Source: Planctomycetota bacterium (GTDB taxonomy: Bacteria > Planctomycetota > Planctomycetia > Gemmatales > Gemmataceae). From it: a stretch of DNA of 49,440 nucleotides. This document shows positions 20,131 through 29,822 of this stretch, piece after piece. A model generated the notes under the pieces. It made no database searches. It was given only the letters and a program-made list of their open reading frames with translations, and was not told where the DNA came from. The translations under genes were made by a program, and so were the position numbers. The stretch lies in contig JAKBCS010000020.1 in the NCBI GenBank assembly GCA_021807595.1, positions 1 through 49,440 of the forward strand, read 5' to 3'. The stretch's first letter is position 1, and each line of letters starts with the position of its first letter.

Positions 20131-22869
20131 TCAGGGACTTCGCTTGCCTTCGTTCGGGTTGATGGCTTGCAATGTCTTGAGCGCCTCCTCGCGCACACCT
20201 GGGCCGCTGTCTTGCAGCAGGTACTCGATCTCTGGAGTCGCTTCGCGCGCCTTGGGGCCAAATTCGCCGAGGGTGCGGAGAATGTAAATCCGCGCGGCGG
20301 CACTCGGCGCGCGTAGGGCGGCGGCCAAAGCCAAAATCACGTTCGGCGCTCGGCTGGGGTCGATGCGAGCCAAAACGCGGGCTGCATGAAGGCAATTCGA
20401 GGGGTCGATGTCGGCGATCGTCACCAACAGCCACGGGATCGCTCGCTTGGCTTCTTCCGACGCTCCGAGATCGTGAAGCCCTTCCACTGCGGGCAAGCGC
20501 ACGTCGAGCGGATAGGGGCTGCCGGCAAGTGCGGCGAGGAGGGGAATCATCTCCGGGATCGAAGAAGGGGCGATGCGGCTCAGGGCGTCGATGGCTCCCA
20601 AACGCACTTTGGGCGAGGCATCGTTGAGGGCGTCGAGCAGAGCCGGCGTCGCCTCGACGTAAGTTGGATCGATGCTCTTGAGAGCCAACGCGGCGGCATA
20701 GCGGACGTTCTCATCGGGATCGAGCAGACATTCGACCAGAGCGCGCCGCGCGGTCTTGGCGGCGGGACCGATGCTCCCCAGCGCCGAAGCCGATTGAGAG
20801 CGCAGCGCCCGTTGACTGGCGTACAGATTCTGGGTGAGCGCGGGCACGGCTTCCGCGCCGGCCGCGCCCAGGCGTTCGACGATGGAGGCCGCCCCAGCGC
20901 GCACCGCGGTATCGTCGTCGCCGAGCGCCTTGAGAACGGAAGGAAGTACCGACCTCGCGCCGGAGCCGATTTGATCCAACAAAGAGATACCTATACGGCG
21001 AAAATCGACATTGCGATCTTCGAGCAACTTGGCCACACTGGGCGCGGCTGCGGCACCGATGCCTTGGAGCGCTTGCAGCGCGACCTGTGCCGCCGCGCGG
21101 TCGCGCAGCGCCTCGACCAAGATGGGTGCGGCCGACTCCGCCGCCGATCCCAGGCGAGACAACGCATCTGCGGCTTGCGAACGAACCGATTCGTCTCCTT
21201 CCTTAAAATCCCGAACGAGCAGCGGAACGACCTTCGCGGTCTGCGCGGGGTCAACTTGTGCCAAGGCGACGGCCGCCTCCGCGCGTAAGGTCGGTTCCGC
21301 CAGCAACTTGGACAGCGCCGGTACGACTTCGGGAGACGGCGCGCCCAATCGCGCCAAGGCTCGCAGGTACACGCCTCCGTGGGTGCGGTCGGTGGTCAGC
21401 GCTTCGACCAGCGCGGGTATGGCCTCCTTGGGCGGTGGCAGAATCCAGCCCAGCGCCTCGGCGGCCAACGGTGCGACACCGTTTTTCCTCTCTTTCATCG
21501 CTTCGAGGATGGCCGGGACGGCCGGACGACCGATCCTTGCCAACGCTGTCTGCACTTCGACGTGGAGAAGATGGTCGTCGGTCGCGTCCTTGTGCGGCTT
21601 CAAAGCGGCGAGAAGAGAAGGCACGGCGGCGCGCGCGCTGGGGCCGATGTTGGCCAAGGCGTGGGCCGCCGGCGGTGTGAGCGAATCCATCAACGCAGGG
21701 ACGGCGGGAGCCGCTCGCGTCGGATCGATCTCCGCCAAGGCGATAGCGGCGACGCGCGATACATTGGGCGATGTATCTTTGAGCGTCGCGATCAAGTCGG
21801 GCACGGCAGGACGCGCCGGCGGGCCGATGCGGCCTAGAATCTCCGCTGCCGCTTCGCGCCGCGCCATCTCGTCATCGCGCAGGGCACTTTGGAGGAGGGG
21901 GACAACCAGGGGGCCAAACGAAGCGAGTAGATTGCGCGCCGCCGCCGTCTTTTCCAGCGGTCCCCGAGCCATCGACAGAAGCGCCGGCCAGACGCGCTCC
22001 GCCTTCCCGCCCATTCGCCAGAGAGCGATCCCCGCTTCGTCGCCCAGTCCAGCTCGGTTGCTTTGAAACTCTTCTAACAAGAACGGCGCGGCGGCGGCAT
22101 CGGCGATAAAAGAGAGCGCTTGACACGCTTTTCGAGCCACCCTCGTCTCGTCGTCCTTGAGTGTCTTCGCCAATACGGGCACGGCTGCCTTCGCACTAGG
22201 GCCGAGCCAACCCAACCCCTCCGCCGCCACAATGCGCATCTCCGCGCGGCGATCTTTGATCGCATCGATCAGCGCGGGGACGATGGTGGCCGGCGGTTGA
22301 CCGATGCTTCCCAAGGCGCGCGCCGCCTCTTGACGGGCGGCTATTCCCATTCGACTGTTGTGCAACAGGACGATTAGCTCGGACACGGCTTCCTCGGCAG
22401 GGGGGCCGATAGCACAGAGAACGCGGGCGGCAGCCTCGGCCTCATCGGACTGGCCGAGGGCATTGCGTAGAGCCGGCACGGCCGACGCTTGCAGACGTAC
22501 CAGCGGCACCTCAATCCGTTTCTCCGTCGGATTCTCTTGGAGCGCTTCCACTAGGCCCGGTACGGCTGGCGCGCCGATGCGAACCAAGACGGCGGCAGCA
22601 CGGCGATGTAAACGGATGTCGCCTTGCCTCCGCGCGTCGAGCAAGCTCGGTACCGCTTCGCCGCCGACGCGCGCCAGTACCTCGGCCGCGCAATCGCTTT
22701 TGGAATAATCGGGGTCGTCTAAATCGACAATCCATTGTTGCAGCGTCTTGCCTTCGTAAACCGGTGTGGCGGGACGGTAGTAGCGCTGCCAAGCCCAGTA
22801 TCCCAGGGCGAGCGTCGCCACTGCTAAAAGAGCGCTTTGGAATAACGTGGATTTCCTCGCGAACGTCAT
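20131..22869 (-). CDS. Membrane-anchored HEAT-repeat protein, 912 residues
   Basis: One N-terminal membrane segment (about residues 10-27) is followed by a short W-I-V-D-L-D-D-P-D-Y block and then more than twenty HEAT or PBS-lyase-type helical repeats. The recurring unit is of the form V-P-A-L-I-x-A-L-x-D, then V-R-x-x-A-A-x-A-L-G-x-I-G-P-x-A, about 37 residues long (examples: A-A-E-A-L-G-W-I-L-P, A-S-A-L-G-S-I-G-P-A-A). It is expected to be an all-helical solenoid on the outer face of the inner membrane used as a protein-binding scaffold. It lies 34 bases downstream of the FolK-SDR gene on the same strand. GGAGGAGG precedes the ATG. The function is unknown. Confidence 0.85.
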   Translation of the reverse strand: MTFARKSTLFQSALLAVATLALGYWAWQRYYRPATPVYEGKTLQQWIVDLDDPDYSKSDCAAEVLARVGGEAVPSLLDARRQGDIRLHRRAAAVLVRIGAPAVPGLVEALQENPTEKRIEVPLVRLQASAVPALRNALGQSDEAEAAARVLCAIGPPAEEAVSELIVLLHNSRMGIAARQEAARALGSIGQPPATIVPALIDAIKDRRAEMRIVAAEGLGWLGPSAKAAVPVLAKTLKDDETRVARKACQALSFIADAAAAPFLLEEFQSNRAGLGDEAGIALWRMGGKAERVWPALLSMARGPLEKTAAARNLLASFGPLVVPLLQSALRDDEMARREAAAEILGRIGPPARPAVPDLIATLKDTSPNVSRVAAIALAEIDPTRAAPAVPALMDSLTPPAAHALANIGPSARAAVPSLLAALKPHKDATDDHLLHVEVQTALARIGRPAVPAILEAMKERKNGVAPLAAEALGWILPPPKEAIPALVEALTTDRTHGGVYLRALARLGAPSPEVVPALSKLLAEPTLRAEAAVALAQVDPAQTAKVVPLLVRDFKEGDESVRSQAADALSRLGSAAESAAPILVEALRDRAAAQVALQALQGIGAAAAPSVAKLLEDRNVDFRRIGISLLDQIGSGARSVLPSVLKALGDDDTAVRAGAASIVERLGAAGAEAVPALTQNLYASQRALRSQSASALGSIGPAAKTARRALVECLLDPDENVRYAAALALKSIDPTYVEATPALLDALNDASPKVRLGAIDALSRIAPSSIPEMIPLLAALAGSPYPLDVRLPAVEGLHDLGASEEAKRAIPWLLVTIADIDPSNCLHAARVLARIDPSRAPNVILALAAALRAPSAAARIYILRTLGEFGPKAREATPEIEYLLQDSGPGVREEALKTLQAINPNEGKRSP

Positions 22870-22903: not shown

Positions 22904-24145
22904 TCACCTTATTGCGCCGCCGTTGATGCGAAGAACTTGTCCGGTGAGAAACTCGGCGGCGGGGGATGCCAGCCAGCGGGCGGCGGCCGCCACATCTTCG
23001 GGAGTTCCCCAGCGTTTCAGCGGCGTTTCCCGAAGCACGCGCTCCTGCCATTGCGACGGCGCGCCTTGGCCCCAGGCGGTGCGAATCCAGCCCGGCGCAA
23101 GACAATGGACGCGCACCGTGGGTGCCAAACTCAAGGCCAGACTGCGCGTGAATGCCGCGATTGCGCCTTTGGCAGCCGCGAACAGTTCGCCGCTGTCACC
23201 CTCCATGCCGCTCTCGGCCTGATCCCATCCCATGTTGATTACCACTCCGCCCCGGTCGGCGCGCATGCGCCGTCCCACCTCGCGGGACAGTATCATCGTC
23301 GCCGTCACGTCCACAGCCAACAGCTCGCGCAGCTTGCGCTCGAACGACCAGTTCGCCGCCTCTCCGGTGAGCGTGTCGGCCCCCGCGTTATTGATCCAGA
23401 TATCGAGTCCGTCCCACCGCTTCCACGCCTCGCCGACGAATCGATGACACGCATCGACCTCCGACAGATCCGCCATGCACACTTCGCCTCGCACTCCGTA
23501 AAGTCGAATCCGCTCTGCCGTCTCCTCAGCCGATTGCCGCGAGCGCCGGCCGTGAACGATCGCATCCGCGCCGCCCGCTGCCAGTTCGAGAGCAATCGCC
23601 CGACCGATGCCGCTGGTCGATCCCGTAACCAGCGCGCGTCGTCCCGCCAACTCGCGGCCCGGAGAGCCACCGTACACATGAAGACCTTGTAACTCTTTCA
23701 ATAGTTCGGCGATGCTTCTTTTTAGCTTGGGATGAACGAGTCCGGGAACCAGCTGGGCCAGGGGGAGCAACACGAATAATCGTTCATGCATTCGTGGATG
23801 CGGCACGATCAACCTTTCGTCGTCGCATACCAGCGTGCCGTGGAGCAATAAATCGAGGTCGATGGTGCGCGGCCCATCTTTTTCGCGGCGCAGTCGTCCC
23901 AGGCTCGTTTCGATCCGGTGCAACGAATCGAGGAGTTCCGCCGCCTCGCGCTCGGTTCGCACCTCGGCAGCGGCGTTCAAGAACATTCCCTGCTCAGTCG
24001 GTCCGCCGACGGGGCGCGTCTCGTAAAGGGGCGACACGCGCGTCACCTCGACGCCCGGCGTTTGCCGCAGCGCCTCCAGCGCTCGCCGCAAAAAGTCTTC
24101 GCGGTCGCCGAGGTTGCTTCCCAATGCGATGTATGCGTAGGTCAT
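22904..24145 (-). CDS. folK: FolK (HPPK) fused to a short-chain dehydrogenase-like domain
   Basis: A 413-residue two-domain protein. Residues 1-160 are 6-hydroxymethyl-7,8-dihydropterin pyrophosphokinase, the ATP-dependent step of folate synthesis: G-S-N-L-G-D-R at the start, Y-E-T-R-P-V-G-G, and the signature D-G-P-R-T-I-D-L-D-L-L. Residues 166-413 are an SDR fold with T-G-S-T-S-G-I-G and N-N-A-G. The position of the catalytic Ser is W307 (N-M-G-W), and the Y-x-x-x-K tyrosine is Phe322 in F-A-A-A-K (codon TTC, read as GAA on plus at 23180-23182). A pteridine reductase (FolM/PTR1-like) partner would be logical for folate synthesis, but the missing residues question that. There is no adjacent folP, folB or folE. 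Confidence 0.85.
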   Translation of the reverse strand: MTYAYIALGSNLGDREDFLRRALEALRQTPGVEVTRVSPLYETRPVGGPTEQGMFLNAAAEVRTEREAAELLDSLHRIETSLGRLRREKDGPRTIDLDLLLHGTLVCDDERLIVPHPRMHERLFVLLPLAQLVPGLVHPKLKRSIAELLKELQGLHVYGGSPGRELAGRRALVTGSTSGIGRAIALELAAGGADAIVHGRRSRQSAEETAERIRLYGVRGEVCMADLSEVDACHRFVGEAWKRWDGLDIWINNAGADTLTGEAANWSFERKLRELLAVDVTATMILSREVGRRMRADRGGVVINMGWDQAESGMEGDSGELFAAAKGAIAAFTRSLALSLAPTVRVHCLAPGWIRTAWGQGAPSQWQERVLRETPLKRWGTPEDVAAAARWLASPAAEFLTGQVLRINGGAIR

Positions 24146-24494
24146 TCTAGCAATCCATTTGTCTGCGCGTCGATTTACTCGGCGGCTTTCGTTGCTCGTT
24201 CGCCTTGAAGCCCAACGGAGATTCGGGCTTGACCTGTTTGTTCGGTGCCGTTATAGCCACTCCGCTATTTCCGTCTGAACCTTGAGTGAAAGAAAAGACC
24301 AAAGTTTTCCGACCGCACCGGGGGTTCGCTCCATGGCGGAGCGGTAGGTGCAAGCGGACGGTATACATGCAGGGGGGCTGCCTCAATCTGGAGATGGGCG
24401 AATGGAAACGAGAAGAGAGGGAAGCCGACTTCGCGCTTCGCTTTCCGTTCTCGATCCTCCATCGTTCATTTTGCAGAGAAGGGCGGCGGATTCA
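24146..24494. other. Divergent intergenic region upstream of the secretin gene
   Basis: This 349-base gap lies between the FolK-SDR gene (minus) and the secretin gene (plus). Apart from the promoter candidate at 24229-24257 I see no gene. Frames that stay open through it toward the secretin lack a plausible start and domain content. Confidence 0.6.
24229..24257 (+). promoter_or_regulatory. Sigma-70-like promoter upstream of the secretin gene
   Basis: TTGACC (24229-24234) and TATAGC (24252-24257) with a 17-base spacer. It lies about 240 bases before the gene start, implying a long leader. Confidence 0.4.
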
Positions 24495-27400
24495 ATGAAG
24501 GAGGCCAGGGTGGCTAGGGCACAGAAGAGAAAATGGATGGATCTCGTCGCGGGCCTCCTCGTTGGGGCGGCGACTCAACCACTGGCGTTGCTCGCCGGCC
24601 CGGAAAGCAATCGCACATTGCTTCCGGCGAGTCCCGAGCGAGAGGTCGCTCAGTTTGCGGGCGGCTCGTCGCGCACACGGGCGGCCCTCAACGCGGCCAT
24701 CGAAGCCGAGCGCAACGGCGATCTCGACAAGGCGGCTTCGCTATACCGCCAAGCCATGGCGCGCGCCAACGAAATGACTCCGGACGAACGGAGCGAGTTG
24801 GAACGGCGTATTGCGGCCAATCGTCTCTCTCTGAAAGCGCGCGGCGAAGCGCGCGAACAGATTGGGCTGGCCGAATCCGCCTTCCAACACAATCGGAAGT
24901 CGGATGCCGCCGCCCTCGTCAACAAGATTACCGTCAACGAACTGTATTTAAGTCCCGCCGACAAACAGCGTTTCCAGGCTCTGCGCCAACAATTGCACAT
25001 GCAAGGGAACGTACCGGTATCGGGGGGAGTCGCTGCCGCCGCGGATGCGCACACCAAAATCCAGCAGGCTCGCGCCGCGCTGGCACAATCGGATCTCGAC
25101 GCGGCAGAGAAGCTGGCCCGCGACGTGGATCGACTTGGCGTGTCGTTCGGCCCGCAAGAAGATTCGCCGCGCAAAGTCCGCGACGACATCGAGCGCCTTC
25201 GCCGCGACGCCAAGAGTATGCTGAGTGCCGCGCGTTCTGCCATGCAGCACGGCAATCTCGATCGAGCCGAGCAGTACGCTCGCGCCGCCGAAAAGTTAGC
25301 GTCGCCGTTTACCTTTATGGTGGGCGATTCGCCCTCAAAAATCTTGAAGGAAATCCAGACGGAACGCACCAATGCGCCCGTCGCCGAACGAACGACGGAC
25401 AAGGGCGCGAAGTCAACGGCCGGCTCTTCGGACGCTGCTTCGCCCAATACCGAAAAGGCTCGCGTTTTGGTGCGGCAAGGTCGAGAGGCTCTGGCTCGCA
25501 ATGACCTGGCCCAGGCGAAGAAATGCGCGGAGGAGGCCAACGCCCTCAAGCCCGATCTGCACTGGACCGAGGATACGCCCGCCCGCTTGCTCGATGAAAT
25601 CGGGCATCTCCAACCGGCGGCGTCCAAGACGAACGCTCCGAAGATCGTCTCTGGTCCCATCAAGAACAAGGCGGAAGCGATGGCGCTACTCACACAGGGA
25701 CGCGAGTTGATGGCGAAGGGGCAACTGGACGAGGCGAATCTGATCTCGGCTCGACTGCGCACGGCCACCAACATCCGCTGGGGCCTGTTCTTCGAGGACA
25801 CACCCGATAAGTTCCAGTCCGATCTGAATGCCACTCGCACCAAGCGGGACAAGGAAGAGTCCGTCCAGATGCTCGCCGAGGGGCGACGATTGTTCCAGGC
25901 GAAAGATTATGCCGGCGCGGAAAAGTTGGCGTATCAATCCAAGACCAAGCACGGCAGCTACAGCATTTGGGACTTCGGCGACACCCCGACGAAGCTGTTG
26001 GCCGACGTGCAAGCGGCGCGGCAGAAAGAGCGAACGATCAAACTTCCCGAAGCACCGAAGTCATCGCATCAAGTCGCCGATCTCAGCCACGGCCCGCTCA
26101 CTCAGCCCGATAACCAAGCTCCGGCTCAGAACAACAAGCCCAAGGAGGCCGGTTCGTACAACGCCTCTTCGTCCGGTAATGCCGGTGAAGCACGCAAGCT
26201 GGTGCAGGATGCTCGCCTGGCTCTCAACAGCGGGAAGTTGGCGCAGGCACGCATCTTGGCCGACCGTGCTCGCGAATTACGCGTCGCGTTCGCTCCGACC
26301 GAAGACTCACCGGAAAAGATCTACCGCGATCTCGAGCCGAAGTCACCGCTTTCGCCGACGGGGAACGTCCCCTCGCCGACGCGCCTCGTCTCCAACACAA
26401 ATCCCTCGGAGACGAAATCTCCACCCTCAGAGACCGGTGGTACGAGTGCCATGCAGTGGCCGACGCCTTCCCAGGGCGTTGGGGGATCGCCGAAAGACAG
26501 TGCGAATGCTTTGGCCGGTCAGACGCGCGCCCGTCAGTTGATCGCCGAGGCTCGCGCCTTGCAGCAGCAAAATCGTCTCATTGAGGCGCGCGAAAAGATC
26601 ACCGAGGCCCAAGGGTTGGGGGTGGCCGCGCGGCCCGGCGAGGAGTCGCCCAATCAAGTCTATCAGCAACTCGGTTTCCAAGCCCGTCAACGCATCGACA
26701 ATCTGGTGCGGAAAGCCAACGAAGGGCTGCGTTACGGCACCAAATCCACGCAGATTCGCTGCCAGGAAGCCGAAGGCGATCTCGCTCAAGCAGGACAGTT
26801 GGCCGCCGCGTTCGGTCTGGATACCCAGCCCATCGAATCGACTCGCCGTTTGGTGGCGCAACTTCGCGCGAGCGGTGGAAGCGCACTCGCCAATGTCTCT
26901 CCACCGTCCACCGGGATGCCGTCCGGCTATCCCGATCGAGGCGTGTCGGCGAAGGGTAACCCGTCGTCCGGCCCCTCGACGCAACAATTGCTCGATCAGG
27001 CGCGAATGGAACTGCGCAGCGGTCAGACGGCCAACGCGCGGCACTCCGCTGAGGAAGCGATCAAGCTAGGAGCGGGGGAGGTCGGCTTGGCCGTGCTTCG
27101 CACCATCGACCTCGAGGACGAAGAGCAGGCCAAGTTGCGCGCCAATCGCACCTTCGACGAAGTGACTCAAGCCTATCGTCTGCGGGATTACCGCCGGGCC
27201 AGCCTGATGCTCGCCGCCATCGACACGCCGAAGTTGGACGGACGGCGACAGGCACGGCTGCGCGAAATGCTGGCCACGCCGGAGATGCAGCCGAACGCGC
27301 GCGGTTCCGGTCTCGCTCTAACCTCCGCCCAGCAGTCCGCCACGCCGAACCAAAGCGGCGGCGATATGGGCCGCGCTCGCGCCACGGACGATCCCGGTCA

Positions 27401-29822
27401 ATCGCTGATCGCTCGCACCCGCGGCATGAGGGAAATCAAGTTCCAGCAGCTGCGCAGCGACGGTATCAAAGTTCAATCCGAAGCCCTGGAGCGATTTCGT
27501 TCCGGTCAGATGGACGTGGCCGAGGAGATACTCCAAGACTATCTCGCCCGCTTGGCCGACGAACAGCTCGATCCCGGTCAATTGTCCATGCTGCGCCGCC
27601 CTCTCGAATCGCGCTTGCAACAGTTCCGACTTCTGAAACAGCAGACAGAGTTGGTGAACAATCGCTTCGACGAAAAGTCGCAGGGCGTGAAAAAGGATCT
27701 TCTCAAGGCCAAGTCCGCCGAGCAGCTCAAGCAGAAGAACCTCGCCCAACTAATGAAACAGTTCAACGAACTCTATGCTCGCGCCAAGTATTCCGAGGCC
27801 GAGTTGGTCGCCTTGAAAGTGAAGGAGTTGGATCCCGATAACCCAATGGCCACGGGTGCTATTCAGATGGCCAAGTCCCATCGCAACCTGAGCCAGTACG
27901 AAAGCGACAAGGCGAACCAGGAAGACGTGTTTATGGAGGCGATGCACGATACCGACGATGTAGGCCCGGCGGGAGTCATCTCGCGGGGGATCGCCTTCAG
28001 CAAGGACGAAGAGCGCCTCAAAACGATTCGCAATCGTAAATCACTTGAGGGCGTGCTTCCCTCTCACGAAACCGACGCGGAACGGAACATCAAGCGCAAG
28101 CTGATGGAGACGGCGTGCCTGAGTTTCACCAACAAGACACTGCGCGAGGCCATCGACTACGTTCGCGGCGTCCACGGGATCAACATTTTCGTGGACGAGC
28201 CGGCTTTGGCCGACCGCAACATCACGCTCGATGCGCCGGTAACGATCAAACTCGACCACATCGCTCTGAAATCGGGTCTGAAGCTGTTACTGCGCACCGT
28301 CCATCTCACCTACGTCGTTGCCGACGACGTGTTGAAGATCACCACGGAGGATCAGGCGCGCGGCAAAACGCAGCGGCGGGTCTACCAAGTGCCCGATCTC
28401 GTCATTGCCGTCGAGAACTACGGACAGGTCGGCACGACGCCCGTGCCGGATCTGGGCATGCTCAACGTCAACCAGGCTATGAGCGCCCCCACGTCGCCGA
28501 TGACTGGGATGACCTCCATGCAGGGAGGTCAAGGGGTAGGCGCGCCGTCGGGCGGTTCGATGGCCAGTCCCAACAGCGGTTTCGCCGCCGATCCGAGCGG
28601 CAATCCGGTCCAGGTCACCAAGCAGCGCTCTCACACGCACGAAGACATGCTAATCAAGCTCATCACCAGTACGGTCGAACCGCGCAGCTGGGCCGATCAA
28701 GGCGGGCCGGGAACCATCGACTTCCATCCCCTGACCAACGCCTTGATTATCAATCAGACGCCCGACATTCAGGATCAGATTCAAGATCTGCTCAACGCCC
28801 TGCGGCGCTTGATCGATCAAGAAGTGGCGGTCGAAGTGAAGTTCATCAGCATCGCCGAAGATTTCTTCGAGCGTATCGGCGTGAACTTCAACATGAACAT
28901 CGTCAACAAGAACCGGCAAGCGCTGAACTTGCAGCCGGAATTGACTTCCGGACAGTTCGCTCAACCGGGCTTTATCAACGTATTGCAACCGAGCAATTTG
29001 CTCTCCGGCCTAACTCCGGCGGGCACCTTGACGAACGACTTGAACATTCCCATCACCAACAGTACCTATGCCCAGGCCGTCCCGCCGTTCGGCGGCTACC
29101 CCGGTGTTCCGGGCTTCGGTGGTCTGACGTTGGGTTTGGCGTTCCTCAGCGATATTCAAGTGTTCTTGTTTATGGAGGCCGTTCAGGGCGACTATCGTTC
29201 CAATGTCATGCAAGCGCCCAAGCTGACTCTGTTCAACGGTCAAACGGCCACGCTGTCCGTCACCGACTTCCAGTTCTTCACCCTCGGCGTGAACATCACC
29301 AACGGCGGGTTCGGCCAGCTGATTTACAATCCCTTGACGACCATGGCCCCCATGGGAACGACCTTGTTCATGCAGGCGGTCATTTCCGGCGACCGGCGAT
29401 TCGTGCGTCTGTCACTGCAACCGAGCATGACCAACCTGGTCAACGGCGAGGTCAACCTGTTCCCGGTCGTGACGCCAATCTTTCCGTTGTTCGACGGTAC
29501 GGCGACGGGTCAGCCGGTCGTCTTCACGCAGTTCGTGCAGCAGCCGCACATCACCCGCGTGTTCGTGCAAACGACCGTGGCGGTGCCGGATGGCGGAACG
29601 GTGTTGATGGGCGGCTTGAAACGGCTGTCGGAAGGCCGCAATGAGTTCGGCCCGCCCGTCATCGGCAAGATTCCTTATCTCAGCCGTCTGTTCCGCAACA
29701 TCGGTTACGGTCGTTCGGCAGAGAGCTTGCTGATTATGGTGACGCCCCGCATCATCATCCAAGCCGAGGAAGAAGAGAAGCAGACCAACTATACGCCGCC
29801 ACCGGCAGTAAGCGGTCTGTAA
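24495..29822 (+). CDS. Secretin-family protein with a long repeat-rich N-terminus
   Basis: A protein of about 1775 residues. A signal-type segment (M-D-L-V-A-G-L-L-V-G-A-A) is followed by some 850 residues of helical repeats (see the repeat feature). A coiled-coil/TPR-like region then leads to a secretin/TonB N-domain (T-L-R-E-A-I-D-Y-V-R-G, then I-N-I-F-V-D) and a secretin N3-type segment (T-N-A-L-I-I-N-Q-T-P-D-I-Q). It ends in the secretin beta-barrel: V-P-D-G-G-T-V-L-M-G-G, I-G-K-I-P-Y-L-S-R-L-F-R-N and L-L-I-M-V-T-P-R-I-I. Secretins form outer-membrane gates for type II/III secretion or pili; no GspE, F or C genes are nearby. A GTG at 24510, five bases after AAGGAGG, may be the true start rather than the ATG at 24495. 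Its end faces recJ. Confidence 0.88.
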   Translation: MKEARVARAQKRKWMDLVAGLLVGAATQPLALLAGPESNRTLLPASPEREVAQFAGGSSRTRAALNAAIEAERNGDLDKAASLYRQAMARANEMTPDERSELERRIAANRLSLKARGEAREQIGLAESAFQHNRKSDAAALVNKITVNELYLSPADKQRFQALRQQLHMQGNVPVSGGVAAAADAHTKIQQARAALAQSDLDAAEKLARDVDRLGVSFGPQEDSPRKVRDDIERLRRDAKSMLSAARSAMQHGNLDRAEQYARAAEKLASPFTFMVGDSPSKILKEIQTERTNAPVAERTTDKGAKSTAGSSDAASPNTEKARVLVRQGREALARNDLAQAKKCAEEANALKPDLHWTEDTPARLLDEIGHLQPAASKTNAPKIVSGPIKNKAEAMALLTQGRELMAKGQLDEANLISARLRTATNIRWGLFFEDTPDKFQSDLNATRTKRDKEESVQMLAEGRRLFQAKDYAGAEKLAYQSKTKHGSYSIWDFGDTPTKLLADVQAARQKERTIKLPEAPKSSHQVADLSHGPLTQPDNQAPAQNNKPKEAGSYNASSSGNAGEARKLVQDARLALNSGKLAQARILADRARELRVAFAPTEDSPEKIYRDLEPKSPLSPTGNVPSPTRLVSNTNPSETKSPPSETGGTSAMQWPTPSQGVGGSPKDSANALAGQTRARQLIAEARALQQQNRLIEAREKITEAQGLGVAARPGEESPNQVYQQLGFQARQRIDNLVRKANEGLRYGTKSTQIRCQEAEGDLAQAGQLAAAFGLDTQPIESTRRLVAQLRASGGSALANVSPPSTGMPSGYPDRGVSAKGNPSSGPSTQQLLDQARMELRSGQTANARHSAEEAIKLGAGEVGLAVLRTIDLEDEEQAKLRANRTFDEVTQAYRLRDYRRASLMLAAIDTPKLDGRRQARLREMLATPEMQPNARGSGLALTSAQQSATPNQSGGDMGRARATDDPGQSLIARTRGMREIKFQQLRSDGIKVQSEALERFRSGQMDVAEEILQDYLARLADEQLDPGQLSMLRRPLESRLQQFRLLKQQTELVNNRFDEKSQGVKKDLLKAKSAEQLKQKNLAQLMKQFNELYARAKYSEAELVALKVKELDPDNPMATGAIQMAKSHRNLSQYESDKANQEDVFMEAMHDTDDVGPAGVISRGIAFSKDEERLKTIRNRKSLEGVLPSHETDAERNIKRKLMETACLSFTNKTLREAIDYVRGVHGINIFVDEPALADRNITLDAPVTIKLDHIALKSGLKLLLRTVHLTYVVADDVLKITTEDQARGKTQRRVYQVPDLVIAVENYGQVGTTPVPDLGMLNVNQAMSAPTSPMTGMTSMQGGQGVGAPSGGSMASPNSGFAADPSGNPVQVTKQRSHTHEDMLIKLITSTVEPRSWADQGGPGTIDFHPLTNALIINQTPDIQDQIQDLLNALRRLIDQEVAVEVKFISIAEDFFERIGVNFNMNIVNKNRQALNLQPELTSGQFAQPGFINVLQPSNLLSGLTPAGTLTNDLNIPITNSTYAQAVPPFGGYPGVPGFGGLTLGLAFLSDIQVFLFMEAVQGDYRSNVMQAPKLTLFNGQTATLSVTDFQFFTLGVNITNGGFGQLIYNPLTTMAPMGTTLFMQAVISGDRRFVRLSLQPSMTNLVNGEVNLFPVVTPIFPLFDGTATGQPVVFTQFVQQPHITRVFVQTTVAVPDGGTVLMGGLKRLSEGRNEFGPPVIGKIPYLSRLFRNIGYGRSAESLLIMVTPRIIIQAEEEEKQTNYTPPPAVSGL
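25048..27110 (+). repeat. About eight copies of a 50-residue helical repeat with EDSP/EDTP motif
   Basis: These are repeats within the secretin protein. The unit has the pattern A-x-x-L-x-x-A-R-x-x-L-x-x-G-x-L-x-x-A, then L-A-x-x-A-x-x-L, and ends in E-D-S-P or E-D-T-P, then K and an acidic-helix D-I/L. Approximate starts of copies: 25048, 25210, 25458, 25675, 25857, 26187, 26520 and 26980. Linkers between some copies are Ser/Pro/Thr-rich (for example 26080-26170 and 26340-26510). Confidence 0.75.

Follow-up and report, generated by a model that had tools for sequence, protein, structure and literature searches.

The window, the 49,440-nucleotide stretch of planctomycete DNA that was analysed here, carries on its minus strand a single open frame with an ATG start that encodes a 413-aa protein (Table 1). 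The preliminary description of this DNA recognized in it an HPPK (FolK) domain and a short-chain dehydrogenase (SDR) domain with intact TGSTSGIG and NNAG motifs, and both the ORF and the Pfam matches confirm this arrangement: HPPK spans residues 5-134 (E 4e-38) and adh_short_C2, an SDR family, residues 177-410 (E 2e-44). The HPPK half scores above the curated cut-offs (140 bits versus 54 for TIGR01498; 131 versus 25.7 for PF01288) and contains all the metal- and ATP-binding residues (DxD, the Arg loop, and PHPR); R84, R86, D96, D98, H116, R118, and R122 are invariant among 30 aligned fusions. The SDR half has the TGxxxGxG and NNAG Rossmann motifs and the fold of a classical SDR. Five Pfam families match the fusion protein, and PF00186, the family of the DmrA/DHFR fold, is not among them. 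Just downstream on the same strand, a 912-aa HEAT-repeat protein is encoded (20131-22869), and the plus strand at 24348-29822 encodes a protein of 1824 aa, whose N-terminal part is long and repetitive and which has a secretin domain at the C-terminus.

The predicted model of the fusion protein is confident (mean pLDDT 90.6, pTM 0.63) and includes a flexible linker at residues 155-162. Structure comparison gave FabG 4jro as the best match (Z 34.8, rmsd 2.0, 241 residues aligned), that is, a general FabG-like fold that does not discriminate between functions; FolM and PTR1 were not among the matches listed, an absence that carries no weight on its own.

Table 1. Features of the HPPK-SDR fusion gene (positions in the window)
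Feature	Position	Strand	Basis
HPPK-SDR fusion ORF, 413 aa	22904..24145	-	ORF and profile matches; found again by whole-genome search
HPPK (FolK) domain	23744..24133	-	TIGR01498 match; sole HPPK of the genome
HPPK C-terminal tail and linker, residues 135-164	23654..23743	-	pLDDT <50 at residues 155-162
SDR domain, residues 165-413, FabG-like Rossmann fold	22907..23653	-	Pfam, predicted structure, structure comparison
TGSTSGIG cofactor-binding motif, residues 174-181	23603..23626	-	TGX3GXG type, not the PTR1/FolM TGX3RXG
NNAG motif, residues 252-255, followed by AD	23381..23392	-	family alignment; D257 in 86/87
D279, position of the catalytic-tetrad Asn	23309..23311	-	Asp 87/87; Asn in 15/18 outgroup rows
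W307, position of the catalytic Ser	23225..23227	-	Trp 87/87; Ser in 17/18 outgroup rows
D308, directly after W307; candidate acid or pterin anchor	23222..23224	-	87/87
F322, position of the catalytic Tyr	23180..23182	-	Phe 85/87, Tyr 2/87; Tyr in 17/18 outgroup rows
K326, catalytic Lys, kept	23168..23170	-	87/87

The suggestion that the joining to FolK is meaningful is borne out by the relatives: all 40 full-length matches at the order level are HPPK-SDR fusions (33 genomes from the same family, 7 from a second one), and the three remaining genomes of the genus all keep the full-length fusion. Other families of the class have the SDR as a free-standing gene (49-61% identity), and more such genes are found elsewhere in the phylum; named members were added to the SDR family by a genome-wide scan. 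A contig titled Bacteroidales (L072) also encodes a fusion; its SDR matches the one in planctomycete genome G220 exactly, and the contig is probably mislabelled or mis-binned. The HPPK fusion places the SDR half in pterin metabolism. The DHPS-flavoreductase of Helicobacter pylori similarly joins a pterin-pathway enzyme to a non-FolA reductase (PMC1971073), although the partner there is DHPS and the chemistry is that of flavin.

The active site of the SDR half

Residues were counted in an alignment of 87 family members with an outgroup of 18 ordinary SDRs, drawn from the same genome and from other sources. As first described, Trp307 occupies the position of the catalytic Ser and Phe322 that of the Tyr in YxxxK (the site reads F322-AAA-K326), and both replacements prove to be features of the family (Table 1). 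Three further features had gone unmentioned: D279 in place of the catalytic Asn, the invariant D308, and a two-residue insertion ahead of F322 relative to most ordinary SDRs. Thus, of the Asn-Ser-Tyr-Lys tetrad, the Lys alone is kept. The fusion shares with FabG and other classical SDRs the overall fold (Z up to 34.8), the cofactor motifs, and this Lys, but has Asp-Trp-Phe for Asn-Ser-Tyr and, additionally, a Trp-rich C-terminal segment. Other invariant or near-invariant residues specific to the family are D257, T260, W358, W366, E373, and W379. In a quick tree with long outgroup branches, the family forms one side of a branch that separates it from other SDRs (SH-aLRT 96), within which L016 and L070, the members that have Tyr, occupy separate places. 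A diverged member from a Chloroflexota MAG (L096:7956-8729) reads GWDM and MFSLIK, and no genes of the tetrahydromethanopterin (H4MPT) pathway were recognized nearby.

The idea of a kinship with the pteridine reductases FolM and PTR1 did not survive. The fusion resembles these enzymes in the SDR fold, the NADP(H)-type site, the proposed pterin reduction, and an acidic residue close to the position of the Ser (next to it in the fusion). However, the fingerprint of PTR1 and FolM is TGX3RXG (PMC1971073), whereas the SDR half has TGX3GXG, with Gly179 in 86 of the 87 rows and a gap in the remaining one. Of the Asp-Tyr-Lys triad of PTR1 (PMC1618733), the Tyr is replaced by Phe and the Asp is shifted by one, following the Trp. 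The scores against the NCBIfam models for pteridine reductase (137.9 bits versus a cut-off of 288) and TmpR (134.5 versus 325) fall far short, and the best profile scores of the SDR half are to general FabG-like SDRs. With both fingerprint and triad missing, membership in FolM/PTR1 is ruled out. The family also differs from FolM and PTR1 in its genomic partners, which are H4MPT genes rather than folate genes.

Co-occurrence and clustering with tetrahydromethanopterin genes

Among the 199 sampled Planctomycetota genomes, the SDR (scored as present at E<=1e-60) was found in 17 of the 18 genomes in which beta-RFAP synthase is clearly present and in none of the other 181 (Fisher 1e-23); conversely, all 17 SDR-carrying genomes, which include several families outside the class of the window, encode beta-RFAP synthase. 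Two genomes with marginal beta-RFAP matches (E about 3e-4) were scored negative. None of the beta-RFAP matches reaches the model's curated cut-off, for which archaeal-type proteins were the standard; the assignment therefore relies on similarity together with the DUF447 and PabB neighbours. Among closer relatives, the SDR is present in 52 of the 55 beta-RFAP-positive genomes, and the two SDR-positive relatives in which no beta-RFAP synthase was detected are just 84% and 86% complete. The co-occurrence is inflated by shared ancestry within the class but holds in several outside families as well.

Four genomes (G185, G213, G216, and G222; loci L169, L166, L167, and L168, respectively) have beta-RFAP synthase and DUF447 yet lack a GWD-type SDR; when they were searched with the family profile, none of the top-scoring matches inspected had a GWD motif. 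Three of the four encode a DHFR-family protein, at least one of them beside thyA, so that substitution for the SDR is possible in these genomes. In G216, folA directly adjoins thyA (L178:3536-4899), which suggests that folA in this group tracks the type of thymidylate synthase rather than the SDR. No PF00186 protein was found in G222; its last reductase would be of a further kind, unless the assembly lacks the gene.

The recurring neighbours of a separate-gene SDR are a DHPS-like gene (TIGR00284, DUF6513), a PabB/TrpE-like gene, a PabA-like amidotransferase, DUF447, and beta-RFAP synthase. The DHPS-like gene comes next after the SDR, or with only a gene for pterin-4a-carbinolamine dehydratase (PCD) in between, in 18 of the 38 separate-gene loci, and in some loci (L077, L078, and L081) the SDR ORF overlaps the following gene by 4 bp. 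PCD intervenes at L071:7250-7717, L075:8692-9114, and L094:4215-4574; the PF01329 profile confirmed it in L071 and L094. The fuller clusters run on into PabB, PabA, DUF447, and beta-RFAP synthase. In a Gemmatimonadaceae MAG (L094), the order is SDR, PCD, DHPS-like, PabB, PabA, aminotransferase class IV, DUF447, and a beta-RFAP-type gene, of which the start is present. Commitment to methanopterin synthesis begins with beta-RFAP synthase (PMC6787355, PMC8305020), which identifies these clusters as H4MPT biosynthesis operons, commonly headed by the separate-gene SDR. No H4MPT genes were seen near the distant members L088-L093 and L096. The linkage concerns separate-gene members; the fused gene of the window is itself unlinked. 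In this draft genome (282 contigs, 95.5% complete), beta-RFAP synthase and DUF447 lie on contig C210, the DHPS-like gene on C259, and folP on C280. The HPPK of the fusion is the only one in the genome; given FolP and the H4MPT genes, it probably supplies both folate and H4MPT.

Proposed dihydromethanopterin reduction and alternative roles

The SDR half, fused to HPPK in the order of the window, appears fairly likely to be an SDR-type dihydromethanopterin reductase of H4MPT biosynthesis. Beyond the observed fusion, residue conservation, operonic placement, and co-occurrence, we infer its substrate, cofactor specificity, and residue roles as follows. In PTR1, the proton of the first reduction is delivered via Asp-Tyr-Lys, whereas the second step, from dihydro to tetrahydro, is DHFR-like, with the hydride coming from nicotinamide and the proton from activated water, not from Tyr (PMC1618733). 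An enzyme limited to a reduction of the second type would need no strict Tyr, which would explain the tolerated Phe. The reaction would most likely be the last H4MPT step, the NADPH-dependent conversion of 7,8-dihydromethanopterin to H4MPT. Lys326 and the Rossmann site would place NADPH for hydride transfer to C6, and N5 would be protonated, as in DHFR and the second step of PTR1, by activated water, which Asp308 and Asp279 may steer. Tyr and Ser, the proton relay in carbonyl reduction and in the first step of PTR1, would be dispensable, and aromatic residues would line the pterin pocket. HPPK, the fusion partner, makes the pterin pyrophosphate on which the DHPS of folate synthesis and the DHPS-like enzyme of the H4MPT pathway both draw.

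Such an enzyme would bring the kinds of dihydromethanopterin reductase to three. DmrA of Methylobacterium catalyses the same proposed reaction, the last H4MPT step, with NADPH and without flavin (as also proposed for the SDR), but has the DHFR fold and is unrelated in sequence to the SDR half. DmrX/AfpA/DmrB of archaea and betaproteobacteria, again with the same proposed reaction, is an unrelated FMN flavoprotein. According to Chistoserdova, the Afp protein is not recognized in planctomycete genomes, and DmrA is its non-homologous substitute in Methylobacterium (PMC5020050); DmrA is almost confined to alphaproteobacteria, and its planctomycete homologues group with ordinary DfrA (PMC6193120). 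The possibility that DmrB/AfpA is already present was rejected: the AfpA profile gave nothing above the cut-off in the 199 genomes (best match 34 of 192 bits), although divergent forms may escape such a search. A literature search, with subscription journals and book chapters outside its scope, found no paper that pairs dihydromethanopterin reductase with short-chain dehydrogenases and none on a planctomycete FolM.

There is a minor but appreciable chance that the SDR acts elsewhere in H4MPT biosynthesis, for example, where the C-riboside is reductively opened to give the ribityl chain, a reaction that in White's pathway comes after the DHPS-like step. The operons and the co-occurrence fit such a role equally well, the frequent adjacency of the SDR to the DHPS-like gene is in line with it, and the reduction of a quinone-methide-type intermediate would require no Tyr either. 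Several methanopterin steps have no known gene, by the estimate of PMC3087415. Nevertheless, HPPK, a pterin enzyme, as the fusion partner fits a pterin substrate more directly, and it is the Dmr step that is the documented gene gap in planctomycetes (PMC5020050).

The preliminary description had proposed a folate setting, with the SDR standing in for DHFR, and this interpretation is partly supported. The suggested genome search for folA turned up no FolA-type DHFR (PF00186) in the genome of the window at the Pfam threshold (E 0.001), whereas FolP is present, which leaves dihydrofolate reduction there without a known enzyme. Similarly, no clear PF00186 match was obtained for 49 of the 63 H4MPT genomes that carry the SDR, and among the H4MPT genomes, absence of the SDR is weakly linked to presence of DHFR (p 0.047, with only four SDR-less genomes). 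Across the phylum, however, the SDR and folA are unrelated (folA in 5 of 17 SDR-positive genomes versus 70 of 182 others, p 0.60), which rules out a simple replacement of folA, and many folA-less genomes have no SDR either. The SDR tracks the H4MPT pathway near-perfectly and, as a separate gene, sits in its operons; the interpretation is better moved to that pathway. A dihydrofolate or dihydropteridine reductase replacing FolA, alone or besides dihydromethanopterin reduction, is accordingly an unlikely identity for the SDR, a dual role being possible.

Of the two options that the preliminary description left for the replaced residues, different chemistry fits the conservation, whereas a regulatory module is unlikely. 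The view that the SDR half is catalytically dead and merely binds NADPH as a regulatory or scaffolding module has a slim chance of being right. Three of the four tetrad residues are replaced, and the identical Tyr-to-Phe change inactivates a carbonyl-reducing SDR (according to the title of PDB 3itd, a Foldseek match). However, about 40 columns are invariant in the family, including Lys326 and new residues in the active-site region, and purifying selection on the SDR half is strong, with dN/dS within the genus of 0.06-0.12 versus 0.10-0.26 for the HPPK half and lower in every pair. Conservation and low dN/dS are unlike those of a dead domain; moreover, the protein is free-standing and single-domain in many lineages, and two members have the Tyr. 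An ordinary SDR altered by misassembly or by decay in this lineage, conceivable in a draft genome, has a negligible probability, and the local mutation or base error in the Phe322 codon once considered fails likewise, given the identical residues in 87 sequences from independent assemblies, finished chromosomes included (Trp307 in all 87, Phe322 in 85).

Returning to dihydromethanopterin reduction, we lean, with some caution, toward the full reading: a non-homologous third dihydromethanopterin reductase of the SDR fold that would have discarded Asn, Ser, and Tyr in favour of DHFR-like protonation by water, would close the gap at the end of planctomycete H4MPT biosynthesis, and, in its fusion with HPPK, may double as dihydrofolate reductase where FolA is lacking. 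Planctomycetes hold a central place in the debate on the spread of H4MPT-linked C1 metabolism between archaea and bacteria, and their unrecognized dihydromethanopterin reductase (PMC5020050) is a gap that is now testable through one named gene family. If this reading is correct, there would be a simple chemical reason why an unusual SDR active site stays conserved with three of its four catalytic residues gone, and the bacterial fusion would join the shared branch point of folate and methanopterin synthesis to the terminal reductase.
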